From the NCBI GenBank assembly GCA_950295325.1, contig OX485808.1, positions 7,316,501 through 7,380,500 of the forward strand: a stretch of DNA of 64,000 bases, in the 5' to 3' direction. Below, in pieces: positions 16,989-63,724 of this stretch (its first letter is position 1; every line of letters starts with the position of its first letter). This DNA is from Polytrichum commune (lineage: Eukaryota > Streptophyta > Polytrichopsida > Polytrichales > Polytrichaceae). A model generated the notes under the pieces. That model saw only the letters and a list, made by a program, of their open reading frames with translations. It did no database searches and was not told the DNA's origin. The translations under genes were made by a program, and so were the position numbers.

Positions 16989-17748
16989 AGGTAGAAATAC
17001 CATAACCCGTGGAAATAAGGTGATTCGCATTGAAGATTTGGTCAGACAATCATGAGATAATTTTCCAAGATAGACGAGAAGGATTCATGAAGAGTGCAAG
17101 TTGTTTCATATTTTTCTATCCTATACAAAAAATGCTACAATTTTTTTAAGTGGTCCAAACCCGTACTCGTTCACTAGATTCTCCCTACACCGAACACGGT
17201 AATCCGTGTTTCCATATAGAACACCCGGGGAGGGCAGTGTGTTAAAAAGTTAAGGATATAGGTGCGAACAACCACTATTTTATAGGGGGGTATTACTTTC
17301 AATTATCTTCTTTTTTCACATGCTATCATTATATAATTTTCTACTTTGGGTTAATAGAAAAATGGCTTGCATTGCTTATAATTCCAAATTACCTATTATT
17401 TCATACCCTATAGTACTTTAAAGATGTCCAATGCCATTTTTGATACCCTATATTACTCTTAAGTCCATTTATAATATTTTGCCCCCATGTTTTTAAAATA
17501 CCCTATCATTTGTTCGCACGTATATTGCTACTCCAACCAATGACTACCCTCCCCACGACAGAACATCGCCTAAATTGGTGACCTCATGAGTACATTAACA
17601 CTTGACTCCCATTGGCTACACTACGTGTACACACATTGAAGTTGCCGCCGAGCCATGATCGGTTTTAGAAATGTCACTTCACCATTATGACGGCGGTCTA
17701 GTGCACGGCTAGAGGGTGGTTAACGGGTTATGGTATTTCTACCTTAAA
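16989..17748. mobile_element. TIR element with a nested insertion
   Basis: The left end AAGGTAGAAATACCATAACC and right end GGTTATGGTATTTCTACCTT are perfect inverted complements. If the outer A and T are excluded, flanking TA dinucleotides fit a mariner/Stowaway-type 2-bp target duplication, but this is weak. A shorter relative without the insertion lies at 18968-19390. No transposase frame is present. Confidence 0.75.
17224..17559. mobile_element. 336-bp insertion inside the TIR element
   Basis: Compared with the uninterrupted relative near 19200, extra sequence begins after AGAACA (17218-17223) and ends before a second AGAACA (17560-17565), a clean 6-bp direct duplication. The insert has imperfect inverted ends (GGGGAGGG near the left, CCCTCCCC near the right), and GTGCGAACAA is inverted as TTGTTCGCAC further in. 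No coding frame. Confidence 0.65.
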
Positions 17749-46844: not shown

Positions 46845-47250
46845 GAAAGAGAGACTTAAGGTGCGCAACATTTCAATATGACAATTTAGAGAGCAAAACT
46901 CAAGGGAGCCCATGAGCTTTCCATGAGCCTTCAAGTTGTAAATACCTAGAACCCAACTGCAACAAGAATGGGCAAGGTAGTCATTGAGGACTATTATCAT
47001 ATGGCAATAATGATGAAAATATGAATTGGATGAAACTAGCACATCTATTGTCAATTATTTCTCTAGCCCCTAGGGCCCCCTTTTGTACATCTACTTTTAC
47101 TTCAACATTCTTTGATAGCCTTTTTAAATGTACACACTAGAGCATATTAATACCTCTCCCTTACGTATACTATGATGCTAATGCCTCAAATAGCACCCCT
47201 TCTTACACTCACAATAGTTCATACGTATGAAGAGTCCATTCCCCAGGGTG
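46845..47250. repeat. Dispersed repeat C, intact copy
   Basis: Its first half (AAACTCAAGGGAGCCCATGA, AAGTTGTAAATACCTAGAAC, CATTGAGGACTATTATCATA) recurs at 52795-52985. Its second half (GTACACACTAGAGCATAT, ACGTATGAAGAGTCCA) recurs at 55345-55520. The two halves are adjacent here. Confidence 0.6.
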
Positions 47251-55029: not shown

Positions 55030-55197
55030 CTCAGTTTGTTCCCTTGCATGTTCCCAAACCTCAGCTTCTTCCCTATGATCCCTTGCATGTTCCCTAGCCT
55101 TGGCTCGTTCCCTACGGCTCCTTGGGTGTTCCCAAGCCTCAGTCCATTACCAACATCCTTTTGCATGTTCCCGAACCTCAATCCGTTCCCTATGCTC
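55030..55197. repeat. 39-bp minisatellite, about four units
   Basis: Units carry (C)CCTTGCATGTTCCC followed by a variant of AACCTCAGCTTCTTCCCTA. On - it stays open and encodes repeated G(N)GLRFGNMQ-type peptides because the unit is a multiple of three. I see no evidence that it is translated. Confidence 0.7.
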
Positions 55198-55564: not shown

Positions 55565-58500
55565 TCAAGATCTTTCCTTAAATGCACCATATTTTCTAGG
55601 TTCCACATTTTTCCTTGATTGTGATCTCAATATCAAGCTTCTTGCGCGCCTCCAAGACGCCATTAAAAATATCATTGAGAAAAACCCAATTAGAACTCCA
55701 ATTCCAAATCCTGTCAATGACACTTCCTCTTCAAAGAATTTGCCTTGTGTGGATATATTCCATTCACCTTGACTTGGAGGGGTCTCTTTCTTGCATGATC
55801 GATTTATAACACTCCCGCAAAGGCTTGGATTCCCTGGAAGGTATGATGTGTTGTCGAAGGTATCAAAATGGGCGGTTGTTGGAATTGCACCTTGAAGGTT
55901 GTTGGATGACACATTGAAAGAAGATAAATATTGGAGAAGTGCCAAGCTATATGGAATTGTCCCATTGAGATTATTGTTGGATAAATCCAAAGTCTCTAAA
56001 CCTAGAAGATTTGTCCCCAAATCATATGGGATTTCACCCTCCAACTTATTGTTGGATAAGATCATAAACTTCAATCCCACTAGTTGTGCAAGAGCTTCGG
56101 GGATACCACCCACAAGGTTATTGGAGGATAAGTCAAAGAAGGTCATGGTTTTTAGAATATAAGTATATGTCAATGGAATTCCTTGCCCCTTTGTGAGAGT
56201 CACAGTTTGGTCTAAAGTGAAAGCCTCAGAGGTGCTTTGAGTTGAATTGTCTACCACCTTGAAACTGTCCAAGCCGTCAACATGAGATAGTATCGAGCCT
56301 TCCAAGTTGTTGTGAGATAAGTCCAACACTTGAAGTGACTTCAAATCTCCAATCCATGATGGTATTGGACCGTGAAGATTGTTGTGTGCCAAATCCAAAA
56401 CACGCAAGCCTTGCAAGTGACTCCCTAATATGGATTGGGAAGGTATGACCCCGGTTATGTTATTCTTACTAAGGTCAACAAGCACAAGGCTAGAATTGGT
56501 GATAGCAAAGGATGTCGGGATTGGTCCACTGATGCTATTGGAAGGGGCTGAAAAGTATTTGAGGGACATCAATTTGCTGAAGTTTAGTTCCAATTGTCCA
56601 ACCATTTGGTTATCTCCAAACCTAAGTGTTTCCAACTTTGGACATCCTTCAAGACTTGACATTGCCAAAACACTACCATTGAGGTTGTTCTTTGACAAGT
56701 CCAAAGTCACCAAGTTGCTCAAATTCCCCAATGTTGTAGGTATGCTTCCACTAAGTTTGTTGTAGCCCAAAGTTAAATAATATAAAGATGTACAATTTCC
56801 AAGTGATGGTGGAATTGAACCAATGAGACTATTGTTTCCGAGTTGCAATAGTTCGAGTTGATTCAGTTTGCCAAGTTCCATAGGTATTTCACCTGCAAAC
56901 CAAACCACTTTAGGATCATAAAAGGACCATGTATTTTATTTCCCATGATTTATGTATTCTCTAATTTCTAGCTTGAGAATTTATGGACATGGGCACACCC
57001 ATTTACATAAGTTTGACAATAAGTAGTTGAGACATCACCCACAAAATTCAAATACACACACCCTTGGGCCTCTGCCTACACATCTGGTTGACAAGCTAAA
57101 CTATTTAGATTTCTTTTATGCCATAAAGCAAGGAACTGCAATTACAAGTTCTTTGTCAAGTCCCCTAAGGACACTAGGTAGGACACTCTAAGGCCTTAGG
57201 TTGAAGTAAATACAATACTTCCCTCTTGTCAAGCCCTTCCGTAGTCTCATAAAAATCAATAGAGAGAATTCCAACCCAAACCATGTTCTGATTGTCAAGA
57301 GCCTCAATTTTCTACATGGTGATTAGTATTGAGTTGAAGACCTCAAGGACAAACCACTCTGCCTACTATTTATTTTCATGGAAATAGAAGGTTTACAAAG
57401 GCTAATAACGTTGTTACCTACGAGAACTCGGAGAATATGTTTACAATCACATCCATGCTTTGTTTTCATGATCCTTAACAACCCATCAATTGAAGAAATT
57501 TATAAACTTAGCACACTCTTCCAGTTCATTTCAAGATGAAATCTAGGTGAGGTCCTTCAGCCAATGAAATGAGCCTGTTTCATTTGTCCTAAAAACAAAA
57601 TAATCTAGGTGAGTTTCATACTTGTGTTATTTAACCTCTTTATCTTTGATGCCTAGAGCTCAACGCATTCACATGCGCAAGGAAAATGCATTCAGTTTGC
57701 TGGGTGTATTCTGGACTTCCTGATCAGACTTAAATCTCACGGATTTCATATCATTAGCGTGTATTGTAACTTCGTGGAAGCTGTAAACTGAAATATATTT
57801 ACTGCAAGTAGCGATTGAGAAGCAATCATGCGAATGTTTGGATCAAATGATGATTTCTATGTTTTGTGATACCCATAATCACAAAATGAAGGTTACCTCA
57901 AAGCTTACAACCTACTGAACTAAAGGGCTAGACATCAAACGGATTTACAAGAGAGTTCAAGGTTGAGAGGAATATCTTACAGTATATTGAGGTAACAAAT
58001 TCTACTTGAAATAGCCACTGAAGGTTTGAGCAATCTAATACCTGATAATAAGTTATAAGTCGCTGTAAGATATTGTAAATTTCTCAACTGACCAAGCTCC
58101 ACTGGTAGTGGCCCTAATTATGACATACACACAAACACCATGGATCCAGGATTAGTTGTTTACAAACACTTAGAAGTCCGGTAGTCTTGTATTTGAGTAA
58201 CTTTACCCACTTCAAAGTGATAACATGCTCCCATTCAGGTCTCATGCCTAGTTGTTGAAAAGGTTATCTCTAGAAGCTTTTAGCAAACTTTATTCAGATG
58301 TGCAACTTTCATTTTCTCATATGAAATTTCACATGATGTATGAAAAACTGGTTCCCAAATCTATCAATAGTATTTATGGTGCAATTCCTATATCATTGGG
58401 AACTTTTATCAACTTGGTATCTTTGAGCTTGTTAAAGAACAACCTCTATAGTAGTGTTTTAGCATTGTCAAGTGTTCAAGGTTGTCCAAAGCTGGAAACT

Positions 58501-60499
58501 CTTTAGTTCAAGCTATTGGAATGACACCATACTTTCTTGTTTCCCAAATAGATAAATCTAAGCACACATGCAAGTCTAACAAAATGATTTGGGCGTGAGA
58601 TTTTCTCACCAGTGAAGTTGTTGTTATCCAGAATAAGATAAATCATGTTGTGGCAACGTCCTAGACTTGCTGGAATTTTCCCAGAGAGTTGGTTGCCCCC
58701 AACTGAAAGAACTTTGAGTTGCCCAAGCCCGCCAAACTCTGGTAGTGGCCCTAATTATGACATACACACAAACACCATGGATCCAAGATTAGTTGTTTAC
58801 AAACACTTAGAAGTCCGGTAGTCTTGTATTTGAGTAACTTTACCCACTTCAAAGTGATAACATGCTCCCATTCAGGTCTCATGCCTAGTTGTTGAAAAGG
58901 TTATCTCTAGAAGCTTTTAGCAAAATTTATTCAGATGTGCAACTTTCATTTTCCCATATGATATTTCACACGATGTATGAAAAACTGGTTCCCAAATCTA
59001 TCAATTATAGTATTTATGGTGCAATTCCTATATCATTGGGAACTTTTATCAACTTGGTATCTTTGAGCTTGTTAAAGAACAACCTCTATAGTAGTGTTTT
59101 AGCATTGTCAAGTGTTCAAGGTTGTCCAAAGCTGGAAACTCTCTAGTTTCGAGCTATTGGAATGACACCATACTTTCTTGTTTCCCAAATAGATAAATCT
59201 AAGCACACATGCAAGTCTAACAAAATGATTTGGGCGTGAGATTTTCTCACCAGTGAAGTTGTTGTTATCCAGAAAAAGCTCAGTCATGTTGTGGCATCGT
59301 CCTAGACTTGCTGGAATTTTCCCAGAGAGCTGGTTGCCCCAAACTGAAAGGACTTGGAGTTGCCCAAGCCCGCCAAACTCTGTGGGAAGAGACCCACTCA
59401 AACTGTTCACAGAAAGTATGAGATACTCCATGCTCTTGCACTTGGCTAAGCTCGTAGGGATGGATCCTGTTAAGCTGTTGCCGTGCAGCCATAATTGTTG
59501 AAGCAGCTGCAAATTACCAAGGGTGGTGGGTATGTTTCCGGTCAAGTTATTGTGGAAAAAAGAGAGAAATATGAGGTTCTGGCACTTGCCCAAGCTTGTA
59601 GGTATCGTCCCGGACAGATTGGCAAAATCTGCTTGCAGACTTGTGAGTTTCTGGCACGAGTTGCCCAGGGCTTCAGGAATGGAACTAGAGAAGGTGTTGT
59701 TGGAGAGCCATAACACTTGGAGTTGAGATAGGTTACCGAGTTGTGGGGGGACTATGCCACTCAAAAGGTTGACACTCACATCCAGGACAGAGAGGTTATG
59801 GCAGTTCATCAACTCGGAAGGGATGCTCCCACTGAGATTGTTCGAAGAGAAGTTGAGGTAGGTTAGTTGAGTAAGGTTGCCAATTTGAGGACTGAGAGTG
59901 CCATTGAGTTGGCAGCCTGGGAGAGAGAGGCTCACCACCTGCCGCTTGGAGTTGCATGTCACTCCTGCCCATGTGCGGCAATGATCAGAATTCCTTGAGT
60001 TTGTCCAATTAGACAAGACACTACGAGGGTCATAGACAATGGCTTCTCTGATGGCTAGTAAAACCGATACATCGTCCATAGCCGTGGAAGAAGAAAGCCT
60101 CCTGCCAGCATGCTCAACCTCCTTAGAATCGGACCGCTCTTGCTGAGTTGATGGGGAATCAGAGACCGCTTGCACTTGAAGGTCTAGTGCAATAGACAAT
60201 GCATGTAAATTTGCACCACCAACTTCTTGTCTCCAGTGTTGATCGATGACATCCTTTTCTCTTTTCGTCTCCCAAGCCTCCATTTGCAGTCGGCGTCTCC
60301 GTTCTGGGCAGCTTACTATTTCGCCAGTGGGTAATGTCTTCCACTCCGTCAAGTGAACAGGAAGCGCCGGTGGAAGCGCATCCGTCCATAGAACCATATC
60401 GACGAGCAGTGTAGTAATTGCAAGAAACGCAACCACACGTGTAAGCCCATGCATCTGGCATGCATACATGAAGGACATTGGTCTACTTCGGCGAGGCAT
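55565..60499 (-). CDS. LRR receptor-like protein (RLP), four exons, no kinase
   Basis: Predicted single-pass surface receptor of RLP type; such proteins sense peptides or microbial patterns and signal through partner kinases such as SOBIR1/BAK1-type co-receptors. Exons: 60499-59251, 58750-58610 (141 nt), 58113-58042 (72 nt), 56892-55565, total 2790 nt, 929 aa. Every internal junction is phase 1 and each falls on the FTG/LSG position of an LRR. Order: hydrophobic signal region (about residues 17-38), an unusual ~100-residue charged extension, LRRNT (VLLAIREAIVYDPRS, then CRTWAGVTC) near 142-180, about 25 plant-type LRRs, an island (about 40 residues around STQSTSEAFTLDQTV) before the last four repeats, the LPGNPSLCG cap, an acidic-poor linker, a TM helix (FGIGVLIGFFSMIFLMASW, near 883-901) and a 28-residue basic tail. 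Start at 60499 (MPRRSRP) is a choice; in-frame ATGs lie at 60544 and 60454. No kinase domain follows. Confidence 0.85.
56893..58041 (-). other. RLP intron 3
   Basis: 1149-bp intron with GTATTAG donor and TTTGCAG acceptor. No repeat or gene recognised in it. Confidence 0.7.
58365..58505 (+). pseudogene. Antisense LRR fragment in RLP intron 2
   Basis: On + it reads YGAIPISLGTFINLVSL, LLKNNLYSSVLALSS, then QGCPKLETL and stops. This matches the sense strand of RLP exon 4 near 56617-56755 (SGSIPTTLGNLSNLVTLDL, SLEGCPKLETL), so the intron carries an inverted, diverged copy of an exon of its own gene. The upstream part of the same frame (58252-58360) is not LRR. Confidence 0.75.
59005..59145 (+). 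pseudogene. Antisense LRR fragment in RLP intron 1
   Basis: Second copy of the fragment at 58365-58505, carried by the tandem duplication. It differs by a few bases and an extra TAT codon-sized insertion near 59006. Confidence 0.75.
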
Positions 60500-62376: not shown

Positions 62377-63724
62377 TAGTTACCAAAGAGGCTAAATGTT
62401 GGTATTATAGGCTATGAGCTCAAATGGTGAATTGTTTCATTATGTAACTAGTTGCAAATCAAGAAGTTTTTCATTTCAACTTTAGAATCAAAGTTCAAAT
62501 GCAAGAATTACAAGAGTTTAAAGAAATATTTAATTTGTTGTCAAGTGATCACGTCAATTCTCACAATCATGTTAATTATTGAACTTAGAATGGTTTCTAT
62601 ACACCCTAAACTCTGTAATATCAACCTTTAAAATGTCACTCACTCTCTAATATCCCAAAACTCTAGGGAATGGATGCTCTTAGTTCAAATTTCACTCTTT
62701 ATTGTCACATTTCTCTCCCTTATATCATTGGTTTTGCTATGATATAACCACTAATAGTTCCATCAGTGCAAACCACCGTTTCAACCCACACCCTCGCGCC
62801 ATGTGTCAGTATGTGGAGTGATTTCTTCTTCTTCTTATGCCACTTGTTGATTTGTTGTTGCATGGATATGTCACATTGCTTAAGAAGGCCAAGTGGGAGG
62901 TTGACATGTGAAGATGGATCATGTGTTATGATATTGTAGATTTCCCACGGTATCATCTTTCTAAACCCTATATCCTAATTCTAAACCATTTCTTCTCCCT
63001 CTCACATGTGTTGCACATCTCTTGGCAATTCGATCCACCAATGTGGGAGCTCTTTAAGGAGTTGAATATGTGTAGGGGTGTGCATTACCCATTGTGAAGG
63101 TCAGACCTTACTAATCTCAAATGCAAGCCTTGTTAATTATGCTTTCTACATATCCTTAGAAGCCGAGTTGTTTTGAATATGAGACCGAGCATCATGGAAT
63201 TGGTGTTGTTGTAGGACACTTCCCTCAATTGCTGATGAAGATATAGAAGCACTATTTTATGCATGAGACAACAGTGGTCACTTCAAGATTCGTTTCGTAC
63301 ACCAATTTTTTATTATTGTAAATATTTTCTTAGAAAAAATTTAATTTCTTCATCAAATGTTTGAGGTTTCGTCCATCTCAGGGATATGATGTGTTGGTTG
63401 TCTCTAGTTCAATCGGGAAGAATTTGTTGACCTTTGTAACACCATCTCTTTGAATTTAAAAGGGAGGTGAGCTACATTCATGTCTACATTTGGATGACGT
63501 CCCTTATAGTAATGTTCTTTTTCATGTATGTTTCTTGAGATGAATTTCTAATGAGCTCAAATGTGCCGAATGTATGTCCTTCATAATCATCAGTCATTTA
63601 ATGAAAATAGTGGATTTTTTTTTCGCCCGAGGGTTGATGTGGTGCTAGCTTATAAGCTCATTATATGGGAACTATGAGTCCGAGTTTTTGATGATTTTGC
63701 ATATAGGGTTGTCACTGCCTGGAG
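62377..63724. other. Gene-poor end region
   Basis: Family B fragment at 62555-62645 (AATCATGTTAATTATTGAAC). A CTT-rich run near 62825. No supported gene. Confidence 0.4.

Follow-up and report, generated by a model that had tools for sequence, protein, structure and literature searches.

A putative chimaeric exon from a tandem duplication that carried an intron in an LRR receptor-like gene of the moss Polytrichum commune

Introduction

Changes in the number of LRRs have been described in several systems, and three of them come close to the locus presented here. The tomato Hcr2 genes (Cf-2/Cf-5) encode LRR receptor-like proteins with 24-residue repeats, the number of which varies via intragenic recombination (PMC7468133). 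The other two are the brown algal ROCO genes, in which each LRR lies on its own 72-bp phase-2 exon and LRR exons are shuffled (PMC11378527), and the arrays of 90-bp phase-2 LRR exons in Tetrahymena, where it was proposed that repeats can be gained when LRR exons flanked by introns of matching phase cross over unequally (PMC6564038).

The gene described here very probably gained a unit by unequal exchange or microhomology-driven tandem duplication, which made a new exon. It lies in the window, i.e., the whole stretch of 64,000 nucleotides that was analysed (C6:7316501-7380500 of a genome of 407,808,757 bases in 64 contigs). The likeness to Hcr2 is that plant LRR receptor-like proteins with a changing repeat number are involved, and a 144-nt array inside an exon of one paralogue is comparable in kind to the tomato case (PMC7468133). 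The features of intragenic unequal exchange of the Hcr2 type are present, with paralogues that differ in repeat number and a junction inside repeat coding sequence; the difference is that the gain in the window gene also copied an intron and made a separate new exon. To our knowledge, the repeat region of Cf-2 has no introns.

With the ROCO genes the window gene shares a 72-nt exon that equals one LRR and a gain of repeats through exons and introns, but it has only one exon of this kind, which is in phase 1 and flanked by large exons with several repeats, rather than a 72-bp phase-2 exon for each LRR (PMC11378527). Neither a ROC nor a COR domain was listed in a Pfam scan of its two large exons. 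The Tetrahymena proposal has in common with the window unequal crossing over between LRR exons as a route to repeat gain, whereas the window holds a single event with a chimaeric exon and no 90-bp array (PMC6564038). Among the titles and beginnings of abstracts consulted, a partial coverage that is weak evidence of absence, no plant precedent of an intron-carried LRR gain was found. The window duplication is a clean, well-resolved new example of a known process, with the chimaeric exon as its special touch. Through its precisely defined junction and three relatives with one unit in this genome, the locus illustrates how an exchange between two LRR exons that flank an intron can make an exon with ready-made splice sites in one step.

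Structure and Class of the Gene

The gene lies on the minus strand, and its four predicted exons give an open frame of 929 aa from the ATG at 60499, a putative start codon that was picked by conservation. Exon 1 (59251..60499) encodes the N-terminal region with an LRRNT_2 domain and the first LRRs, and ends in phase 1 at the donor ACTG|GTGAGA. It is followed by the new chimaeric exon (58610..58750; 141 nt, 47 codons), which joins the opening 12 nt of the 72-nt exon to the final 129 nt of exon 1, then by the 72-nt exon itself (58042..58113), the 24 codons of which encode a single LRR and which is present in all four close paralogues, and then by the last exon (55565..56892) with the remaining LRRs, a hydrophobic stretch, a short tail and the stop. 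All exon junctions are in phase 1, and with the 141-nt and 72-nt exons in or out, in all four combinations, the frame stays open (929, 905, 882 or 858 aa).

A Pfam scan of exon 1 and the last exon returned PF08263, PF00560, PF13855 and PF12799 above the cut-off; LRR models occur in both exons and LRRNT_2 in exon 1, and the Pfam lists for these two exons (E up to 0.001) contain no kinase model. Read by eye, the frame stops ~28 residues past the hydrophobic stretch, leaving a short tail, and hydrophobic stretches stand at both ends of the protein, where they may represent a signal peptide, subject to the uncertain start codon, and a single transmembrane helix. An LRR ectodomain with an N-terminal LRRNT_2 cap, the lack of a kinase domain and a short cytoplasmic tail are together the make-up of an LRR receptor-like protein (RLP), for which a role as a ligand receptor is predicted.

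The Tandem Unit and Its Junction

The first-pass annotation of this DNA had claimed a tandem unit, and the alignment of 59382-58742 with 58741-58105 bears this out. Unit 1 (U1, the original; 58742..59382, minus strand) has 641 nt: the 132 nt that close exon 1, a 500-nt intron and the 9 nt that open the new exon. Unit 2 (U2, the copy; 58105..58741, minus strand) has 637 nt, namely the copied 132 nt of exon 1, a 496-nt copy of the intron and the 9 nt that open the 72-nt exon. The two stand head to tail and differ by 16 substitutions in 640 aligned bases (~97.5% identical) and by two indels of 1 and 3 nt, the substitutions being distributed as 9 in 132 exon nucleotides, 7 in 496 intron nucleotides and none in the last 12. 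The boundaries proposed earlier (58114-58750 and 58751-~59387) describe the same unit rotated by a few bases, and the 141-nt exon at 58750-58610, the 72-nt exon at 58113-58042, the CATAATTAG acceptor common to both, the shared donor and the frame of 929 aa were found as claimed. Chance similarity of U1 and U2 is ruled out by their identity over the 640 aligned bases and by the matches of the new exon in a DNA search of the genome, which returned five including itself, the others being the parent exon (93%) and the three paralogous exons (92, 91 and 89%).

The duplication junction, which can be read directly, has exon sequence on both sides: a shared CAG (58739..58741, minus strand) links the 12 nt that open the 72-nt exon to the 129 nt that close exon 1, and the other two CAGs of the duplication are at 59380-59382 and 58102-58104. 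The 72-nt exon starts with GGCCACTACCAG|TGGAGC, exon 1 reads CTTCCCACAG|AGTTTGG at the breakpoint, and the new exon combines the two as GGCCACTACCAG|AGTTTGG. Since the breakpoint lies 12 nt inside the 72-nt exon, the new exon is a chimaera; the repeat position is nearly equal in both exons but one codon off register, which is why the new exon has 47 rather than 48 codons. In a tandem exon duplication an entire exon is copied with its flanking intron and the breakpoints lie in introns, whereas here they lie inside two exons.

In the mechanism that we propose, position 12 of the 72-nt exon would have been joined over the shared CAG to the near-equivalent repeat position near the end of exon 1, and one product of the exchange would have gained ~640 bp. 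This gain would comprise the exon-1 end with its donor as well as the complete intron with its acceptor, and the intervening DNA would then read as a 141-nt exon between intact-looking splice sites. The new exon would add 47 residues, corresponding to two LRRs, one of them 23 residues long, and might thereby widen or alter the ligand surface of the receptor. The one-codon register offset fits microhomology joining as well as crossing over. What the DNA itself establishes is the junction, an open frame, conserved letters at the splice sites and paralogues with a single unit, and the earlier proposal of an intron-carrying tandem duplication that inserted 47 codons in phase 1 is supported, the copied piece being open in the predicted frame.

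Paralogues and the Ancestral State

A whole-genome search with the exon-1 protein gave 143 matches, and among the best 97 of 2226 candidates, which were scored, there are four close members at 100, 93, 90 and 89% identity, followed by the next at 49%. The three relatives of the window gene (L005, L006 and L007) all lie on C3 at 37.87-37.95 Mb, i.e., on another chromosome. Each has one unit, with one exon match, and the 72-nt exon, and their spliced models contain no internal stop (1337, 1199 and 1199 aa, respectively). One unit is taken as ancestral because all three paralogues have this arrangement with open frames. The first-pass annotation had suggested a comparison of relatives for one or two units; these three paralogues have one, and within this genome none of them combines it with the same 929-aa protein, a combination that would have spoken against the proposed duplication.

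Long pieces of L005 match the window in the same order at 87-93% identity, except that the two units correspond to a single L005 stretch. The matches extend from window position 62890 to 55076 and resume at 54175-53974, at the end of L005. Given these long matches, both loci derive from copying of a segment that measures ~8 kb or more. Distant paralogues are far less similar over their matched parts (L009 49 and 55%, L010 45 and 48%). In L009 the exon-1 LRRs also end at the NNRFTG motif, after which the open frame continues for ~40 residues that are not LRR-like, and a motif scan in three frames made no separate single-LRR exon evident there.

Age of the Duplication and Excess Change in the New Exon

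The introns of U1 and U2 differ from each other at 7 of 496 sites (1.4%) and from the L005 intron at 46/497 and 45/496, respectively (about 9%); the second intron of the window gene differs from its L005 counterpart at 109/1148 (9.5%). At 42 intron sites U1 and U2 share a base that L005 does not have, and they differ from one another at 7; they are therefore sisters, and the duplication took place after the split from L005. If intron change is clock-like and was not homogenised by conversion, the duplication has an age of ~15% of the L005 divergence. This intron clock is doubtful, as divergence from L005 is lower elsewhere, namely in the 5′ flank (18/501, 3.6%) and at the silent sites of exon 1 (4.3%). 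Silent divergence in the duplicated exon tract, which is higher between U1 and U2 (3/30 sites) than between U1 and L005 (2/30), is not readily reconciled with a duplication that is far more recent than the split from L005. The earlier description of an event “caught in the act” is therefore kept in a relative sense only: the duplication is recent compared with the L005 split, by an intron divergence that is ~15% of that to the nearest paralogue.

The nine exon differences between the units, when polarised with L005, fall on U2 in eight cases and on U1 in none, and one is ambiguous; as U1 matches L006 and L007 at the ambiguous site, it was counted to U2. The intron changes are three in U2 and four in U1. 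With the ambiguous site included, the new exon (9/132) changed ~11 times faster than its own intron copy (3/496), and Fisher tests, chosen after the data were seen, gave p = 0.0019 for all exon versus intron differences and p = 7.8e-5 for the U2 branch including that site. Six of the nine changes are replacements and three are silent; the rate ratio of 0.61 gives no indication of positive selection on its own. Five residues were replaced (Q to K, W to G, T to I, E to Y and F to I), all of them at exposed x positions of LxxLxLxx, on ligand-facing strands of the predicted LRR surface, and the framework residues are kept. This preference is partly a family trait, because 10 of the 19 variable residues of the region among the four paralogues are also at exposed x positions, which make up 40 of its 231 residues (counted with a regular expression, which recognised eight strands). 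Over its full length, exon 1 is under loose constraint between the window gene and L005 (ratio 0.8), compared with 0.33-0.38 in the other four pairs.

The excess in the exon bears on the origin of the unit. It is possible, albeit doubtful, that the unequal exchange was between diverged alleles or paralogues, or that the exon was later converted or the introns homogenised, such that the exon differences came in from elsewhere or have a greater age than the introns indicate. The one-sided distribution of the exon differences, silent ones among them, beside the few changes in the U2 intron, the higher silent divergence of the tract between U1 and U2 than between U1 and L005, and two of the nine differences that match L006 or L007 would be in keeping with such an origin. 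On the other hand, among the best DNA candidates scored no better donor was found in the assembly than the exon's own parent (93%), and the two most altered stretches yielded either no further match (up to 2 mismatches) or a single one at 3 mismatches, in the L006 paralogue. The near identity of the introns, and three exon sites at which U1 and U2 agree against all three paralogues, also speak against such an origin.

For the duplication within the gene, we tentatively consider, at less than even odds, that the new exon underwent a burst of change right after its birth, unshared by the parent exon and by its own intron, and caused by selection for a fresh recognition surface or by error-prone repair beside the breakpoint. 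If the rate of the U2 intron holds, 3 silent changes at ~30 silent sites seem too many for selection alone; conversion from an unsampled copy, error-prone repair at the junction or homogenised introns are possible causes of the excess.

Splice Sites of the Copied and Original Exons

The acceptor CATAATTAG stands both before the new exon (the copy; 58751..58759, minus strand) and before the 72-nt exon (the original; 58114..58122, minus strand). The counterpart of the latter reads CATGATTAG in L005 and GTCATTAG in L006 and L007, and ATTAG|GGCC precedes the 72-nt exon in all three. The acceptor was thus not created at the duplication boundary, as the first-pass annotation had considered; the old acceptor of the 72-nt exon, which stands before that exon in the four close paralogues, was carried along. 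GT and AG are present at both copies of the unit, as is a branch-point-like CTAAT with no AG between it and the acceptor. From these intact-looking splice-site letters, the putative new exon is presumed to be spliced in. Since its skipping keeps the frame, the sequence cannot say that it is used.

A reading in which a genuine duplication left an exon that is passed over or seldom included, with a protein of 882 aa and a neutral change, is rather unlikely. The phase-1 junctions throughout would make such skipping harmless to the frame, and the fast change of the new exon at both silent (3) and replacement (6) sites is expected with little constraint. In the stretches compared, however, the donor region of the new exon is identical to that of its parent, and between its acceptor region and the one before the 72-nt exon there is a single base difference, ~35 nt upstream of the exon; moreover, no stop arose, and five replacements are at exposed repeat positions with the framework residues retained. 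An assembly artefact is very improbable as the source of the extra unit, for although near-identical tandem units are a typical place for assembly errors, the copies differ by 16 substitutions and two indels and the junction is a two-exon chimaera over microhomology rather than a simple stutter.

Repeat Loss in the Last Exon

The gain did not make the window gene longer than its relatives. At 56739..56743 (minus strand) its last exon lacks, in frame, a series of LRRs that all three paralogues have, amounting to 951 nt relative to L006 and L007 and 1365 nt relative to L005. A rough regular expression found 23 LRR strands in the window gene and 41, 30 and 31 in L005, L006 and L007. L005 and L006/L007 share LRR sequence at this site that the window gene is without, and a stretch in an intron of the window gene, in antisense, retains a match to ~30 nt upstream of the site that is found in the three paralogues and not in the window exon; both observations speak for a loss in the window gene. 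The ectodomain “lengthening” put forward earlier does not hold as a net statement: having lost this long run of repeats, the protein is the shortest of the four (929 aa versus 1337, 1199 and 1199 aa), and net lengthening was rejected.

Inside the last exon of L005 (6532-7705) there are 8.2 tandem copies of a 144-nt two-LRR unit (91% matches). LRR number in this family goes both up and down, and with one intron-carried gain, one 144-nt in-exon array and one large loss, the family forms a compact natural series for change of receptor repeat number in a moss.

Antisense LRR Sequence and Other Observations

A part of intron 1 (59000..59156, minus strand) corresponds to last-exon LRR coding sequence in reverse complement, and the duplicated intron contains a copy of this part (58366..58508, minus strand). 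These stretches, read as 59156-59000 and 58508-58366, match 56743-56611 over 133 nt at 80% and, for the copy, 125 nt at 82%; the duplication doubled the stretch, giving two possible hairpin arms in the pre-mRNA. The L005 intron also has an antisense stretch. No antisense match was found in the introns of L006 and L007, which are too diverged to tell gain from loss. The predicted duplex energies with the exon are -152.7 and -143.8 kcal/mol, compared with means of -43.7 and -41.7 in shuffled controls (100 single-base shuffles each), but the longest perfect run in the first predicted duplex is 13 nt. A small-RNA role of the antisense stretches is conceivable; among the papers listed on antisense LRR sequence in introns, none is on point by its title.

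Past the 3′ end of the gene, window 55037-55192 holds about four copies of a 39-nt repeat, and an array with a 39-nt unit also occurs in L005 (9615-9707). L005 9485-9266 resembles window 47034-47247 at 77%, and window 17227-17558 gives a 333-nt alignment that is 95% identical to L005 1060-728, upstream of the paralogue; the latter is perhaps a dispersed repeat. On contig C8, a presumed plastid sequence of 146,561 bases, lies psaB; among the 60 of its 175 PDB matches that were listed, the top ones are 7ksq, 6l35 and 8htu (1671.8 bits), followed by matches at 1634.3 and 1601.3 bits. These three entries are photosystem I structures of the moss Physcomitrium, in line with a moss as the likely source. 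Short psaA/psaB-like pieces with stop codons lie on two large contigs (C4:47707642-47707821 and C5:337267-337371) and are presumably plastid DNA that moved to the nucleus.
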